A stretch of DNA of 60,976 nucleotides, from positions 1 through 60,976 of the forward strand of contig JACWAI010000051.1 in NCBI GenBank assembly GCA_014874415.1, read 5' to 3'. The translations under genes and the position numbers were made by a program. Each line of letters begins with the position of its first letter. Within the stretch, counting starts at the first letter, position 1. The DNA is from Nitrososphaerales archaeon. Its GTDB lineage: Archaea; Thermoproteota; Nitrososphaeria; Nitrososphaerales; Gagatemarchaeaceae. Positions 46,084 to 51,957 of this stretch are shown here, in pieces. The notes under the pieces were generated by a model, which did no database searches, was not told where the DNA came from, and saw only the letters and a list, made by a program, of their open reading frames with translations.

Positions 46084-46229
46084 GTTGTTCGCCGAGCCGA
46101 TTGTTTGGGTTAATAATGTTGTGAGAGACGCCGCAGTTACAGCAACACTTTCGCCAATCTCTCCAGCACAGACTCATTCCAAAGGAGTCCGACATTAAAT
46201 TCCAGTTGGAATTTTCTGCTCTCATCACG

Positions 46230-47168
46230 ATGACCAGACTACACTATCCACATGATCAACGCGAAAGCGGCAAGGAGCGTTTCGTTTACTCCTGTTCCAG
46301 CTGCAGTTGCGTCCTTCAAGTCCGACGCGACCTGGGGCTGATTAGTGAGACGATCGATTCGCCAAACAGCAGGTGCGTCGGCTGCGGCCGCACACTCGAG
46401 GGGAACGTCGAATGCAGATTAACCACCGTACCTGATGAGTGGTCCGAACTCTACAAGAGCGTCCCAAAGGCGACCGAGAGGAAGACCCCCGACTTCCGTC
46501 CCGCCTCGTCCTATCCTCACTTCTCTCTCGGTTTCCCCAGTCTGGATTCGCTTTTCAGGCCATTCTCCCCCGGCTACACGGTCGTGGTCAGCGGTGGCGA
46601 AACCTCTATCATCGCTGAGCTCGCTACATTCAGGGCACAGCTCCCACTCGAGATGGGGGGCCTCGACTCTACCGTGCTCTTCATCGACGGCGGCAACCGC
46701 TCCGACCCGTACCTCTTCTCCTCGTTCGCGCGTCAACGCGGGATCAAGCCGAACACCGCGATGAGAAGGGTAGCCACGTGCAGGGTCTTCACCATGCACC
46801 AGCTCGCAGACCTAGTCTCAAGACACGTCGTTTCAGCCGTGGACGACTATGCGGCACGGCTAGTGGTCATCTCCGACCTCCTCGGCACCTTCAACGAACC
46901 CGAGCTCGACGACAGGGAGGCGAGAAGGCTCCTCAGCGCCATCGAGCAGGCAATCGGGCTTGTGAAGAAGAACGCCTTGGTGCTTGTGACTCTGGTCTCG
47001 CCGAACAAATACGACGACACGGTCACATCTTGGGCCGACACCTCGGTCAGTCTTACCTCGACCGGCGGCAAGGTGCGCGCCGAGCTGCTCAAGCACCCGA
47101 GCAAGCCTCCGGCCGTCTCCAGCTTCAATCCGGGCCAGCTCCTCAGACAGGTGAAGGTGGTTCGCTGA
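46230..47168 (+). CDS. Zinc-ribbon RecA-like protein without Walker A, first gene of the PolB cassette
   Basis: An N-terminal zinc ribbon (CSSCSC ... CVGCGR) is followed by a RecA/RadA-like core: HFSLGFPSLDSLFRPFSPGYTVVVSGGETSII, FIDGGNRSDPY, LVVISDLLGTF and LVLVTLVSP. The P-loop is SGGETSI, lacking GKT, so ATPase activity is unlikely. I choose the ATG at 46230 because ATTAAATT near 46196 is about 34 bases away. It overlaps the next gene (TGATG), the start of a tightly packed operon ending in the PolB gene and an unknown gene. Confidence 0.7.
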   Translation: MTRLHYPHDQRESGKERFVYSCSSCSCVLQVRRDLGLISETIDSPNSRCVGCGRTLEGNVECRLTTVPDEWSELYKSVPKATERKTPDFRPASSYPHFSLGFPSLDSLFRPFSPGYTVVVSGGETSIIAELATFRAQLPLEMGGLDSTVLFIDGGNRSDPYLFSSFARQRGIKPNTAMRRVATCRVFTMHQLADLVSRHVVSAVDDYAARLVVISDLLGTFNEPELDDREARRLLSAIEQAIGLVKKNALVLVTLVSPNKYDDTVTSWADTSVSLTSTGGKVRAELLKHPSKPPAVSSFNPGQLLRQVKVVR

Positions 47169-47437
47169 TGGGGAGGACTATACCCTCGTTCAGAATCGCG
47201 GAAGCCCAAGAAATCGCAGAGTGGAAGGCCTTCAGGAACGCCCTCCCCAAGAGAGACAGACTCATCTTTGACGAGATGCTGAGCACGGCCAGGCTTTACA
47301 CGTCGGCCTCCTCGTCTGCGGCGAGGACCTCGAGGTTCGAGGGGATGGCGATGGCCCTGATCTTCCATCACCAGAGGCTGCTGACGCGTGCCATGGGGGC
47401 CCTCACAGAGACAAGGCATGCGGAGGGTGAAAAATGA
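47168..47437 (+). CDS. Small helical protein A of the PolB cassette
   Basis: An 89-residue, probably all-helical protein. The pattern EIAEWKAFRNALPKRDRLIFDEM is shared with the next gene (E..W..F..AL...DR.LF.EM), so the two are tandem paralogues. The ATG at 47168 overlaps the preceding stop, and its stop overlaps the next start by 4 bases. There are no cysteines or membrane segments. Role unknown; an adaptor or scaffold for the neighbouring RecA-like and polymerase proteins is suggested by context. Confidence 0.65.
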   Translation: MGRTIPSFRIAEAQEIAEWKAFRNALPKRDRLIFDEMLSTARLYTSASSSAARTSRFEGMAMALIFHHQRLLTRAMGALTETRHAEGEK

Positions 47438-47700
47438 CCCTTTCCGACTCCGAAATCATCGAAGAGCTGGAGAGCTGGGAACGCTTCTCCGGAGCCCTCA
47501 GGGCTGAGGACAGGGAGCTGTTCAAGGAGATGTTCAGGCTCTGCTACGAATACTTCCCTGCCATGCAGGCGCGCCAATCGCCCTTCCCGAGCGAAGCGCT
47601 CTTCATGAGCCTCCTCTTGATGCAGCACAAGACGATCGTCTGGCTGGCGGCCGAAGTCGAGAAGCTGAAAGGGGAGAAGGGTGAGGGGCTGGATTCTTGA
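47434..47700 (+). CDS. Small helical protein B of the PolB cassette
   Basis: An 88-residue helical protein, paralogous to the preceding one: ELESWERFSGALRAEDRELFKEM aligns residue for residue with its start, and the C-terminal half has a similar hydrophobic pattern. It overlaps the polymerase gene by 20 bases. Two related small proteins side by side point to a heterodimer. Function unknown. Confidence 0.65.
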   Translation: MTLSDSEIIEELESWERFSGALRAEDRELFKEMFRLCYEYFPAMQARQSPFPSEALFMSLLLMQHKTIVWLAAEVEKLKGEKGEGLDS

Positions 47701-50700
47701 CCTCTACCCGGACGCACCGGGGAAGATGGTCGTCTGGCTCAAACAGGAAAGCGGCCAAGCAGTTAGGTTGGTCGACCACTGGTCGCCCTCCGTATTCATA
47801 GCCACCGACGGCAGGTCCGACCTCAGAATCCCGCTGGACATACTCGGCCCCGAGTTCGCATGGACAAGAGCCGTCCAGAAGTACGAAAGGGTGACCGACG
47901 CCAGCAAATCCGAAGTCGTCGAGGCGAAGCTCAAAGACGCGAAGAGAGCCCAGCAGGTCGCAGGCAGGATGGAGAGACTCGGCCCGTTCGGGACCTTCAG
48001 GCTCTATAACGTGGACATCCCCCCCAACCAGAGTTACCTCTACGAGCACGACCTCTTCCCGCTTGCTTACTGCGAAGTGACACAGACCGGAGCCAAGCTC
48101 GAGTGGGAGCTGAAGGACAGCGTATGGGAATACGACTACGTCCTGCCAAAGACCAGGAGAGCCGAACTCGACGTCACGATAGCGAAACAGGGAAAACTAG
48201 CACGCTTCACCGACAAGATCAAGGAAATCACACTAAAGATTGACGGCGACAAGATTGGAATCGACGGCGGAAGCGAGGCTGACAAGATACTCGAACTGGT
48301 CCGCACTGTAAAGGAAGCCGACCCTGACTTCATCATCACAAACGACGGCGACACTTTCCTGTTCCCATACATGGCCAAGCGCGCCCAGGCCAACGGCGTA
48401 GCCGACAGGCTGACCCTTGACAGGGATAGGACTCTATTGAGAATCCCCGAGAAGAAAGGGACGTCGTACTTCAGTTACGGAAGAATCCACTACAAGCCGT
48501 CGGCGGTGAAGCTCTACGGCAGGGTGCACATCGACACCAACACGTCCTTCGCTTACTCGGAGGCAGGGTTCGAGGGGCTCTTCGAGCTTAGCAGAGTCTG
48601 CAGGATGCCGCTTCAGACCTCCAGCAGGGCAAGCATAGGCAAAGCGCTCTCGAGCCTGCAGTTCTACCACGCCTCGAAGACCGACCTGCTGGTCCCTTGG
48701 AAACCCACACTCGTGGAGCACTTCAAAGACAGGAACGAGTTGCTCATAGCCGACAGGGGGGGTTTCATCTTCGAACCGAAGATGGGACTTCATGAGGGAA
48801 TCGGCGAACTAGACTTCAATTCGCTTTACCCGAGCATCATGTTAAGGAAGAACATCTCCGCAGAAACGGTAAGATGCCCCTGCTGCCCAGACTCGAAGAA
48901 CAGGGTCCCTGAGCTCGACTGGAACGTCTGCGAGAGGAGGACGGGCATCGTCCCCCGAGCAATCGAAATCGTGGTCAAGAAGAGGCTCGGATACAAGGAA
49001 CTGAAGAAGAACGCCAAAGGCGCAGACTACGACAGGTACAAAGAAAGACAGGCCGTCCTGAAATGGATCGGAGTAACATGCCTTCCTAGGGAATCGCCGG
49101 TCTTTGTCAAGCAGGCCGACGCCGCCGGGTTCGTCGGAATCGGTGATTTTGTAGACAGTCTGGTGGGCGAAAGGACGGGCGTGATAGAGTGTCCGCCCGG
49201 CGTATTCGTCGCAGGGTTGGGACCGGATTACAAAGCAAAGTACAGCAAGGTGGCCAACCTGATCAAGAAGCCGAACAACCAGAAGCTGCTGTCCGTAGAG
49301 ATGGAAGACGGCAGGAAGATTGTTACCACTCCTGACCACCCGTTCTTTGCACTCCGAGAAGGAGAATTGAACGTGGTTGCCGCCGAAGAGCTGAAAGTAG
49401 GGGAAGCCATACCCGCGGCAAGGAGGATTCCACCGAGCACCAACGCGATCAAAGAAATAGACCTGGTCGAGCAACTTGGAAGGTCGCTCAGCACCGAAGA
49501 GCAACTGTTATGGAGGGTCTCGGGGGAATGCATCAAGGAGGAAAGCCGGGAGAAGAAGCTGAGCCTCCTCAAGGCAGCAACTTCGGAGGGGTACACCTAC
49601 CAGGCCGTCACTTCATGGACCAAGAGCGGGATTATACCACTCAGATTCCTGAGTCTGCTCAACATTGCCCCCGAGTCCCGTCGGGCGCTGAGGATAGGCG
49701 TCGGGAGAAGGCTTGGAGGAAGGATTGCATGGCTCCCCGCTATGATCAAGGTCGACGAGAGGCTCGGCTTCTTCCTGGGCTTGTATGTAGCAGACGGAAC
49801 CGCCACCGACACATACATCAGGCTTGACATAGCGTCCTCAGAACCCGAACTGCTGAAGACCGCCAGAAGGTTAGTACAATCAATCCTGGGAATCTCGCCG
49901 CGCATCTACAAAGAGAGAAAGGCCAGGATGCACGTCGTCCAAGTAAACAACGCCAGCCTTGTCAAAGTCTTGGAGAAGGTCCTCGGCCTACCCGGTTCTG
50001 CAGAGAAGGGGAAGCTGAAGGTCCCAGACGTCATATTCAACTGCAGAGAACGGGCTGCCCACAGGTTCCTTGCTGGGCTGGTGGCTGGCGACGGACACGT
50101 CAGCAAGCAACGGAAATTCGTTGACGTCGCGACGGCATCAAAGGAGTTCCAGAACCAAATCGGGTTCCTGGCGGCCAGGTTGGGGCTGGCTTTCCGGTTG
50201 GCAACCAGCCGTGAGAACGGCCACCCTCTCTACACCATCAATTTCGTGGGGCCTGAGACGCTAGGGAGCATCGCGAGCTGGGAATACTCGAAAGAAAACC
50301 AGAGAACGGCGATTCAATCTTGGTCCAAAGAGTCTCCAGACACCTGCGATCATGCCAGATACATGAGGCTCCCGGCCGCCGAATCAAGCCTATTCACACT
50401 GGCCAAGGCCACCAGAACCTCTTCAGAGCCGCACGTGAACGAAGAGGCTCGCACATGCCCCACGCAGGTAAAGAAGAAAATCGAACGAATGCGTTCTAGG
50501 ACGCTGAGCGAAGAGCAGAATGAGCAGACGGTGAAAATCGAAAGGCTCCTCAACAGCGACTTGGGATTCGTCAGGATACTGAGAATCGAAAGACTGGATT
50601 CCCGCCCTGAGTATGTCTACTGTTTCCAACTGGCCGAGAGCGAAGTTCCAGGGTTCTTCACCGGCGAGGGACTGGTCTTCACCCACAACTGCTTCGGCTA

Positions 50701-51547
50701 CCTCGGCTTCAACAACGCGAAGTTTGGCAGGATAGACGCCCACATCGCGGTCTGCGCCTGGGACAGGAAGATTCTGCTGGACGCGGCAAGGATAACCGAG
50801 GGGAGGGGCTTCGAGGTCGTACATGGCATAATTGATTCTCTTTGGGTCAAGAAGGAGAGAGCAGGGCGCGACGACTATCTCAAGCTGAAGTCGGACATCG
50901 AGTCTGAAACAGGCTTCACGATGTCGTTTGAGGGCATCTACAAGTGGATCGCGTTCCTTCCTTCAAAGATCGACGCACAGATACCTGTCCTCAACAGGTA
51001 CTTTGGAGCCTACCAGAACGGAGAACTCAAGGTGAGGGGAATAGAGGCGAGGCGTCACGACACGCCGCCCGCGTTCGCGAAGTACCAGATGGAGATCCTG
51101 AGGGTTCTGGCGAAGGCCGACTCGGTAAGGGGTGCTCAGACAAAGATTCAGGAATGCGTCAGCATATTCATCAGGCACGCCACAGCGCTCGAAAGGCGTG
51201 AGACCCCCACCGCCGAGCTGGCCTTCACGACGAACCTCTCAAAGGCCCCCGATGAATACACAACCATGACAGTCCAGCATTCGGCTGTGAAACAGTTGAC
51301 CCACGAGGGGGCACAACTGCACGCCGGCGAAGGGATACGTTACATCATCACCGACTACAGGGGCAGGGATTCGAAGAGGGCTACGCCCCTAGACACCCTT
51401 CAGGACGGAAGCTACTACGATTCCAAGCGCTACATCGAGCTTCTGGCAGAGACGTGCTCCTCAGTCTTGGAGCCGTTCGACCCTCGCCTATCGGCTGCCG
51501 GGCTGCTCTCCCTCTACGAGGCTCACAGGAGCGTGCCGCTGGTATGA
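47681..51547 (+). CDS. Family B DNA polymerase homologue, apparently inactivated, with intein
   Basis: The precursor is 1,288 residues, of which 467-1003 are an intein. The host (751 residues) begins GWILDLYPD, like the inactivated archaeal PolB clade. Motif A is intact (LDFNSLYPSIM, D378). Motif B is altered (LKWIGVT-CFGYLGF). Motif C reads HGIIDSLWV, so the first aspartate of DTD is isoleucine 1050. The exonuclease motifs are lost: no DxE at Exo I, NDGDTFLF instead of NxxxFD at Exo II, no YxxxD. A four-cysteine insert (C399, C401, C402, C417) follows motif A. The start is GTG. Confidence 0.85.
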   Translation: MRGWILDLYPDAPGKMVVWLKQESGQAVRLVDHWSPSVFIATDGRSDLRIPLDILGPEFAWTRAVQKYERVTDASKSEVVEAKLKDAKRAQQVAGRMERLGPFGTFRLYNVDIPPNQSYLYEHDLFPLAYCEVTQTGAKLEWELKDSVWEYDYVLPKTRRAELDVTIAKQGKLARFTDKIKEITLKIDGDKIGIDGGSEADKILELVRTVKEADPDFIITNDGDTFLFPYMAKRAQANGVADRLTLDRDRTLLRIPEKKGTSYFSYGRIHYKPSAVKLYGRVHIDTNTSFAYSEAGFEGLFELSRVCRMPLQTSSRASIGKALSSLQFYHASKTDLLVPWKPTLVEHFKDRNELLIADRGGFIFEPKMGLHEGIGELDFNSLYPSIMLRKNISAETVRCPCCPDSKNRVPELDWNVCERRTGIVPRAIEIVVKKRLGYKELKKNAKGADYDRYKERQAVLKWIGVTCLPRESPVFVKQADAAGFVGIGDFVDSLVGERTGVIECPPGVFVAGLGPDYKAKYSKVANLIKKPNNQKLLSVEMEDGRKIVTTPDHPFFALREGELNVVAAEELKVGEAIPAARRIPPSTNAIKEIDLVEQLGRSLSTEEQLLWRVSGECIKEESREKKLSLLKAATSEGYTYQAVTSWTKSGIIPLRFLSLLNIAPESRRALRIGVGRRLGGRIAWLPAMIKVDERLGFFLGLYVADGTATDTYIRLDIASSEPELLKTARRLVQSILGISPRIYKERKARMHVVQVNNASLVKVLEKVLGLPGSAEKGKLKVPDVIFNCRERAAHRFLAGLVAGDGHVSKQRKFVDVATASKEFQNQIGFLAARLGLAFRLATSRENGHPLYTINFVGPETLGSIASWEYSKENQRTAIQSWSKESPDTCDHARYMRLPAAESSLFTLAKATRTSSEPHVNEEARTCPTQVKKKIERMRSRTLSEEQNEQTVKIERLLNSDLGFVRILRIERLDSRPEYVYCFQLAESEVPGFFTGEGLVFTHNCFGYLGFNNAKFGRIDAHIAVCAWDRKILLDAARITEGRGFEVVHGIIDSLWVKKERAGRDDYLKLKSDIESETGFTMSFEGIYKWIAFLPSKIDAQIPVLNRYFGAYQNGELKVRGIEARRHDTPPAFAKYQMEILRVLAKADSVRGAQTKIQECVSIFIRHATALERRETPTAELAFTTNLSKAPDEYTTMTVQHSAVKQLTHEGAQLHAGEGIRYIITDYRGRDSKRATPLDTLQDGSYYDSKRYIELLAETCSSVLEPFDPRLSAAGLLSLYEAHRSVPLV
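49079..50689 (+). other. Intein with LAGLIDADG endonuclease in the PolB homologue
   Basis: The intein is 537 residues. It begins with cysteine (CLPRESPVF), has the block B histidine in TTPDHPFF, two LAGLIDADG motifs (FFLGLYVADG and FLAGLVAGDG, both aspartates kept), and ends VFTHN with cysteine as the next host residue. All splicing residues are present, so it should splice. It is inserted in motif B after GVT. A block of about 90 residues between the second motif and the C-terminal blocks is unusually long. Confidence 0.93.
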
Positions 51548-51957
51548 CAATCGAGATTGCAAGGCTCGAAGAGTTCCTAGACGAACTCGCAAGCCATGTC
51601 ACCACCAATGGAATAGTCACGTTCTCCGCTGAATATGAAACACAAAAGTGGGATGTGAAGCGCTCTAAGGGAGGATTGACCTTTGGAACAAGCAAGAAAC
51701 AGGATATGAAGTTCAGGGGGATTTTCGCCAACACCCTTGTAGGTAGCGGTCGTTTGGGTTTGGTTCTCAGAACATTCACAGACAAATTCGACGAGTTGTC
51801 AGGCCTGCCAATCAAGGAGATTAGAGGGTATCTCGTCGCACTTGACGGTCAACACGTGAGATGGGAGAAGCTCGCCCCTGATGAAATCGCCGAAGCATCT
51901 GGAAGGGACGAGGCGGGAAAAATCATTCCTGCCGAGAAGGCAGTGGTGTATTGTTGA
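51544..51957 (+). CDS. Unknown protein ending the PolB cassette
   Basis: The 137-residue protein starts at an ATG overlapping the PolB stop (ATGA), so it is translationally coupled. It is a mixed alpha/beta sequence with GIVTFSAEYETQKWDVKRSKGGLTFG and FTDKFDELSGLPIKEIRGYLVALDGQHVRWEKLAPDE. It has no recognised motif. Membership of the cassette is inferred from overlap; it may instead be a passenger. Confidence 0.6.
   Translation: MTIEIARLEEFLDELASHVTTNGIVTFSAEYETQKWDVKRSKGGLTFGTSKKQDMKFRGIFANTLVGSGRLGLVLRTFTDKFDELSGLPIKEIRGYLVALDGQHVRWEKLAPDEIAEASGRDEAGKIIPAEKAVVYC

Follow-up and report, generated by a model that had tools for sequence, protein, structure and literature searches.

The contig JACWAI010000051.1 of a soil archaeon of the Nitrososphaerales (assembly GCA_014874415.1, family Gagatemarchaeaceae, formerly Thaumarchaeota group I.1c, PMC10640624), here called the window (the whole stretch of 60,976 nt that was analysed), contains five open reading frames (ORFs) on one strand at 46230-51957. 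As a sequence-only reading of the window had reported, adjacent frames overlap, by 1, 4, 20 and 4 bases (Table 1). The question raised by this locus is whether its family B DNA polymerase and the RecA-like protein encoded beside it are dead enzymes kept for a structural role, as that reading proposed, or parts of a working machine. The first four genes are the already described PolB2 mutasome operon, which consists of iRadA, two PPB2 copies and PolB2. Our preferred explanation, to which we give a probability of about 0.83, is an archaeal mutasome for translesion synthesis whose PolB2 carries a splicing intein. While the cassette has been described before, two features were not found in the searchable literature and are new, namely the intein and a promoter box upstream. 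Where needed, G, C and L numbers denote compared genomes, contigs and loci, respectively, with G000 being the window's own genome. Papers are cited from the passages that were available.

The operon and its polymerase

The order iRadA-PPB2a-PPB2b-PolB2 is kept in relatives. It agrees with the mutasome operon described in PMC11791011, as do the three families, the duplication of PPB2 with an MGRT arm on one copy and the absence of the first motif C aspartate; a PolB2-iRadA-PPB2(3) complex was predicted there from structural models and likened to Pol V. An association of arCOG07300 and an inactivated RadA with PolB2 had also been noted (PMC4104785). In contrast to the operon of PMC11791011, the present one has an intein in motif B of PolB2 and a CxxC...CxxC N-terminus on iRadA, and the words intein and zinc are absent from the main text of that paper. 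In a neighbourhood survey, which the sequence-only reading had suggested for its small proteins, PPB2 accompanies PolB2 in 119 of 161 partly redundant loci. The set resembles bacterial Pol V (UmuD'2C-RecA) and, as we presume, ImuA-ImuB-DnaE2 in combining a mutator polymerase, a RecA-family partner and small subunits. The polymerase families and the small subunits are different, however, and the likeness is one of architecture and not of membership (PMC11791011). The published models and the survey together make probable what the sequence-only reading had proposed more loosely, namely a damage-related, mutasome-like complex with a RecA-family partner.

The description of the first gene product as a RecA-like protein without GKT was correct. 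Its N-terminus, read as a zinc ribbon in that description, has the pattern CxxC...CxxC, it matches Pfam Rad51 (E-value 2.4e-6) and it has GGETS in place of the RadA Walker A sequence GSGKT. The fold predicted by AlphaFold is confidently that of RadA/Rad51 (mean predicted local distance difference test, pLDDT, 88.6), and the best Foldseek match of the model is 5kdd_B, a RadA (E 1.1e-16). After removal of redundancy, 84 RadA-like ORFs with 190 amino acids (aa) or more were compared; 81 lack the motif GxxxxGK[ST], the other 3 being extra RadA paralogues, and at least two CxxC are present within the first 110 residues in 33 of the 84. A RadA paralogue with intact P-loop lies directly upstream of iRadA-PPB2a-PPB2b-PolB2 at three loci, L050 (G130), L100 (G028) and L101 (G082). 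These genomes each hold another RadA elsewhere; two of the three paralogues score above the RadA cut-off and the third is truncated by the contig end. Such a paralogue could be a recombinase dedicated to the mutasome. The tree support for the three as one clade is 0.32.

The two small paralogues noted from the sequence do belong to one profile family. PPB2a starts with MGRTIPSF, and an MGRT-like start is present on the first copy only in 66 of the 87 loci having two copies.

In order to assess PolB2, we aligned 113 non-redundant full-length genes, with 16 partial ORFs set aside. The position of the first motif C Asp is Ile in all 113. In the window, Leu227 occupies the Exo II Asp position, where Asp is found in 5 of the 113 relatives, motif C reads HGIIDS and the D(K/R) motif is D358-R359, as is characteristic of PolB2. 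The sequence-only reading was therefore right that the exonuclease residues and the first motif C Asp are missing. From these losses it proposed a structural fork complex of two dead folds and small adaptors, with synthesis left to PolD, which we consider very improbable. The absence of the Walker A lysine in iRadA agrees with such a complex, and inactivation of PolB2 was predicted in older work (PMC4104785). However, five residues are invariant in 113 of 113 genes, the Asp of motif A, the Lys of motif B, the His and the second Asp of motif C, and the Asp of D(K/R), and because the remaining residues are those needed for catalysis, inactivation does not follow. Moreover, Sulfolobus PolB2 (Dpo2), which has the same substitutions, is reported to be a robust polymerase that lacks exonuclease activity and continues extension beyond lesions (PMC8764526). 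DNA damage induces its expression (PMC7390963). In view of this evidence the term inactivated is out of date, and neither the pairing of two dead folds nor the assignment of synthesis to PolD, a protein that was not searched for, is supported. The PolB2 of the window shares with that of the Dpo2 operon of Sulfolobus islandicus the Ile at the first motif C Asp, the missing Exo II Asp and the retained motif C His and D(K/R). It differs in that no intein is mentioned in the available passages on Dpo2, and in that activity and induction were measured there and are predicted here (PMC8764526, PMC7390963).

The intein in PolB2 and the proposed mechanism

Residues 467-1003 of PolB2 constitute an intein of 537 aa within motif B, amounting to 42% of the length of the gene 4 protein. 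It matches Pfam Intein_splicing (E 2.7e-14) and LAGLIDADG_3 (2.6e-20) as well as NCBIfam intein_Nterm (3.9e-8). The splice residues are complete, with Cys1 (CLPRES), block B TPDH, C-terminal HN and Cys+1 (Cys1004), and we take the intein to be of class 1. Both LAGLIDADG motifs, FLGLYVADG and LAGLVAGDG, are intact by pattern; the same pattern finds one motif in G127 and none in G161. Relative to the usual NSYYG, the insertion point follows the residue aligned with S and precedes the one aligned with Y, presumably one residue after the usual pol-b site. The site is empty at the syntenic loci of G052 and contig C107.

Among the 113 full genes, 7 have an intein in motif B, 1 has one in motif A and 105 have neither. 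The motif B inteins are of 530-537 aa in the window, G161, G127 and G151, whereas G033, G050 and G064 have mini-inteins of 185-204 aa with all splice residues and no LAGLIDADG match. Partial PolB2 genes of G097 and G153 also carry the motif B intein, and a distinct intein of 373 aa splits motif A in G115 and in a partial gene of G155. In the extein tree the carriers of full inteins are scattered among empty relatives and the three mini-inteins form one clade. Inteins of archaeal family B polymerases have been placed in PolB3 and in one PolB1 (Nitrososphaera gargensis, PMC4104785). Those likewise lie inside catalytic motifs, and here too there are mini-inteins and carriers scattered among empty genes, but the host is PolB2. 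In the available passages of the literature covering both inteins and PolB2, supplements excluded, PolB2 is not named as an intein host, and an intein in the PolB2 active site looks apparently new. The entry of inteins into motifs A and B more than once would be independent evidence that this active site is used, and it argues against a dead polymerase, for which splicing would presumably not matter.

Between the window and G151 the inteins are 69% identical and the exteins 53%, which vertical descent does not explain and which points to horizontal homing. For the same pair, the ratio of nonsynonymous to synonymous substitution rates (dN/dS) is 0.17 for the intein, 0.13 for its endonuclease part and 0.36-0.37 for the exteins; among the mini-inteins it is about 0.10-0.15. 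These are rough values with high dS, above 1 in most comparisons. As judged from these ratios, both intein and exteins are under purifying selection. The first 90 nt past the insertion are 90% identical between the window and G151, against 77-81% between G151 and four other relatives, two of them intein-bearing, which is a weak sign of co-conversion. Cys+1 is present in 7 of 7 full genes with a motif B intein but also in 32 of 106 others, mostly from Bathyarchaeia, and was thus rejected as a mark of the intein across PolB2. Within the main Gagatemarchaeaceae clade it is present in 5 of 5 genes with the intein (one partial) and in 1 of 23 without; four divergent second-type copies, all having Ser, were left out of this count, and partial, split and motif A intein genes were counted. 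This pattern, which reflects a small number of events, fits co-conversion of the flank.

The idea that the intein has near kin in other genes was rejected: at E up to 1e-15, matches were found in 13 of 300 genomes of the phylum, its own included, and the best other match is only 32% identical. As a separate observation, single open frames at G000:C24 8782-11217 and in G127:C218 (860 and 867 aa) show an interrupted RadA match that looks like the result of an intein insertion. Both of these genomes carry the PolB2 intein; in G052 and G010, which do not, RadA is uninterrupted.

Could the intein be a post-translational lock, with splicing in motif B awaiting single-stranded DNA (ssDNA), redox or another damage cue? 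The RadA inteins of Pyrococcus and Thermococcus are reported to splice conditionally, with ssDNA as the cue in P. horikoshii (PMC5790916), and three related species retain endonuclease-less mini-inteins whose splice residues are complete, at the dN/dS given above. On the other hand, any intein in a useful gene must retain its splice residues, most PolB2 genes function intein-free, and the patchy distribution and mobility fit a selfish element. We therefore regard a lock as improbable, if somewhat less so than the complex of dead enzymes. If it were true, splicing within motif B would be a second lock on a mutator polymerase in the intein-bearing species, and PolB2 inteins make a splice-gated mutator polymerase testable.

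The mechanism that we propose for the translesion mutasome starts from what is observed in these genomes, that is, gene order, family membership, invariant catalytic residues and the anatomy and mobility of the intein. It takes polymerase activity, damage induction and, from models, the architecture of the complex by analogy from papers on relatives, and it is by this analogy that we infer the whole mechanism for the present organism. DNA damage would raise transcription of the operon. The PolB2 precursor of 1288 aa would become a working polymerase once its intein has been spliced out and T466 joined to C1004, and the intein endonuclease would spread the intein between PolB2 genes. PolB2 would be the proofreading-free catalytic subunit and would extend primers past lesions and mismatched ends. 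iRadA, whose RadA fold lacks the usual ATP site, would dock on PolB2 like a filament neighbour, and a PPB2 trimer would insert one MGRT arm between PolB2, iRadA and DNA, with the second PPB2 copy providing armless subunits.

Several points weigh against this mutasome. The models of the complex are published ones made for other species, and iRadA is the one protein modelled here; a pattern search found no PCNA-binding (PIP) motif in it. The rule of one MGRT copy in PMC11791011 is less clean in our set, because 20 of the 87 two-copy loci have the pattern on neither copy and 1 has it on the second only. For some PolB2 genes, such as those of mini-intein carriers, neither iRadA nor PPB2 is seen in the stretch compared. 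The literature search also found no data on expression, splicing or activity of a PolB2 from any member of the Nitrososphaeria. PolB2 without iRadA or PPB2 in the stretch compared was seen at L039, L040, L041 and several Nitrososphaeraceae loci, some of these contigs being short.

The promoter box and the Lhr-type helicase

A box of the form CACTTTCG-n-CTCYC-n-TTAAAT lies upstream of the operon. In the clade of the window its hexamer ACTTTC precedes iRadA at all 18 of 18 loci, of which 17 belong to the genus and one is from G103, where 0.75 were expected from mononucleotide shuffles. It is also found at 4 of 10 other Gagatemarchaeaceae loci (0.48 expected) and at 10 of 19 loci of Bathyarchaeia and Methanomethylicia (1.9 expected; positions not all matching, two loci with short flanks dropped), and at none of 20 other Nitrososphaeria loci (1.6 expected; two loci dropped).

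A first pattern without the TATA part, derived from operon promoters, gave 22 match rows against 4 for reversed controls in four genomes, many of them within ORFs, and matched the promoter of an Lhr-type helicase in two of the four. TTAAAT was added to the pattern after these matches had been seen. Across the 31 genomes of the genus, the resulting pattern, CACTTTCG-N(3-12)-CTCYC-N(8-36)-TTAAAT, gave 26 matches, spread over 16 genomes, and none when reversed. Assigned by reading, 12 are before iRadA, 9 before the helicase and 5 before other genes, which include a thioredoxin and a small gene preceding a PIN-like toxin; two of the iRadA sites were assigned by position, the script having chosen a spurious frame. 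ACTTTC is present in 19 of 24 helicase promoters, some of which are near-identical (0.92 expected), and AGTTTC takes the same place in the other 5. Among NCBIfam models, the one that best matches residues 1-485 of the helicase is TIGR04121, a damage-response DEXH helicase, with a score below cut-off; the name Lhr is our own presumptive assignment.

In Sulfolobus, A(N)TTTC is essential in promoters inducible by ultraviolet (UV) light, at -44 to -39 beside the transcription factor B recognition element (BRE) and TATA (PMC5817253). Both ACTTTC and AGTTTC agree with this sequence, and the present box has in common with it a non-palindromic A(N)TTTC upstream of TATA and before genes of DNA-damage type. 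In the Sulfolobus element, however, ANTTTC is directly upstream of BRE/TATA, whereas here its distance from TTAAAT is about 50 nt for the mutasome and 29 nt for the helicase, and CTCYC follows it; because of this distance we did not class the box as a Sulfolobus UV element.

Is the box then a damage-response element, at which a factor binds ANTTTC-CTCYC upstream of TATA and co-induces the mutasome and the helicase after damage? We put this at slightly under even odds. The excess of ACTTTC at iRadA in three groups, the 26 matches against none, 21 of them before two genes of DNA-repair type, the hexamer before all 24 helicase genes and its essential role in Sulfolobus speak for such an element. 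Against this, the TATA part was chosen post hoc and the earlier pattern also matched controls and the inside of ORFs, orthologous promoters of one genus, some nearly identical, are not independent, the TATA spacing is unlike that of Sulfolobus, and five matches precede genes without obvious repair role. ACTTTC is missing in the other Nitrososphaeria, and the box is absent from the 170 nt upstream of the operons with an extra RadA (one start guessed). In six Bathyarchaeia genomes the composite pattern, itself drawn from operons it found, gave 5 matches against 6 in controls, and these counts give no evidence of a Bathyarchaeia regulon. We suggest, more tentatively still, an ANTTTC-CTCYC damage regulon of Gagatemarchaeaceae, perhaps also of Bathyarchaeia, with the PolB2 mutasome and the Lhr-type helicase as its core. 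No damage regulon was found in print for these archaea, in a search mostly of open papers without supplements. As a candidate archaeal damage regulon, the shared box bears on whether one common DNA signal underlies the archaeal damage response, which is poorly understood; a regulon hexamer common with the Sulfolobus UV response would, if true, point to an old damage signal of TACK archaea.

Coordinates, the fifth gene and the draft genome

Table 1 Features of the operon region in the window (positions of the window; source of each assignment in the last column)
Feature	Position	Strand	Basis
Promoter box CACTTTCG-N5-CTCTC, includes hexamer ACTTTC	46146..46163	+	Exact pattern match
TTAAAT, probable TATA element, 29 nt 5' of iRadA ATG	46195..46200	+	Sequence; similar distance in relatives; putative function
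iRadA, N-terminal CxxC...CxxC segment and RadA-like domain without Walker A lysine	46230..47168	+	Pfam Rad51, AlphaFold, Foldseek
PPB2a, N-terminal MGRT arm	47168..47437	+	Translation; homologues in operons; arm described in available passages of PMC11791011
PPB2b, without MGRT arm	47434..47700	+	Translation
PolB2 precursor, 1288 aa, GTG start	47681..51547	+	Pfam DNA_pol_B E 1.6e-22; motif C HGIID of PolB2 type
PolB2 N-extein, residues 1-466, ends ...KWIGVT within motif B	47681..49078	+	
Intein, 537 aa, two LAGLIDADG motifs	49079..50689	+	Pfam, NCBIfam, splice residues
PolB2 C-extein, residues 1004-1288, starts CFGYLGF, contains motif C	50690..51547	+	
ORF5, unknown protein, 4-base overlap with PolB2; outside conserved operon	51544..51957	+	

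The sequence-only reading had counted five genes in the cassette, and here it did not stand. Besides itself, ORF5 has 1 weak match in 151 genomes of the order, and members of its family occur in 7 of the 398 phylum genomes searched, its own among them, where a single genome can have as many as three. The family (the window ORF and L129-L137) shares an unnamed domain, GLPxKELRGY ... PEPAVxYC. Inspection by eye of flanks of roughly 1.5 kb around nine phylum matches found no PolB2, PPB2 or iRadA. Given this rarity and the lack of operon genes beside its relatives, ORF5 was rejected as a cassette member. Neither Pfam nor NCBIfam matches it at E up to 1, its family has no match in viral contigs, and its single-sequence fold (pLDDT 40.7) is useless. 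Upstream of the operon lies a tRNA-Leu on the opposite strand.

The draft genome has 1.69 Mb in 114 contigs, with 91.6% completeness and 3.55% contamination, and the window is its contig 33 (C33). G130 falls in the same family. A Pfam DNA_pol_B search of this genome gave two PolB2 genes only and no replicative PolB1, which an assembly gap may explain. The second PolB2, on C107, was dropped as a paralogue. Homology between C107 and the window contig extends over three collinear blocks (window 39.5-56.3 kb) with protein identity of roughly 60-90%. Given these homologous blocks and the contamination of the draft, C107 is more likely a misbinned contig of a congener, with segmental duplication as a lesser alternative. 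C107 also carries one of the two Y-family polymerase matches.

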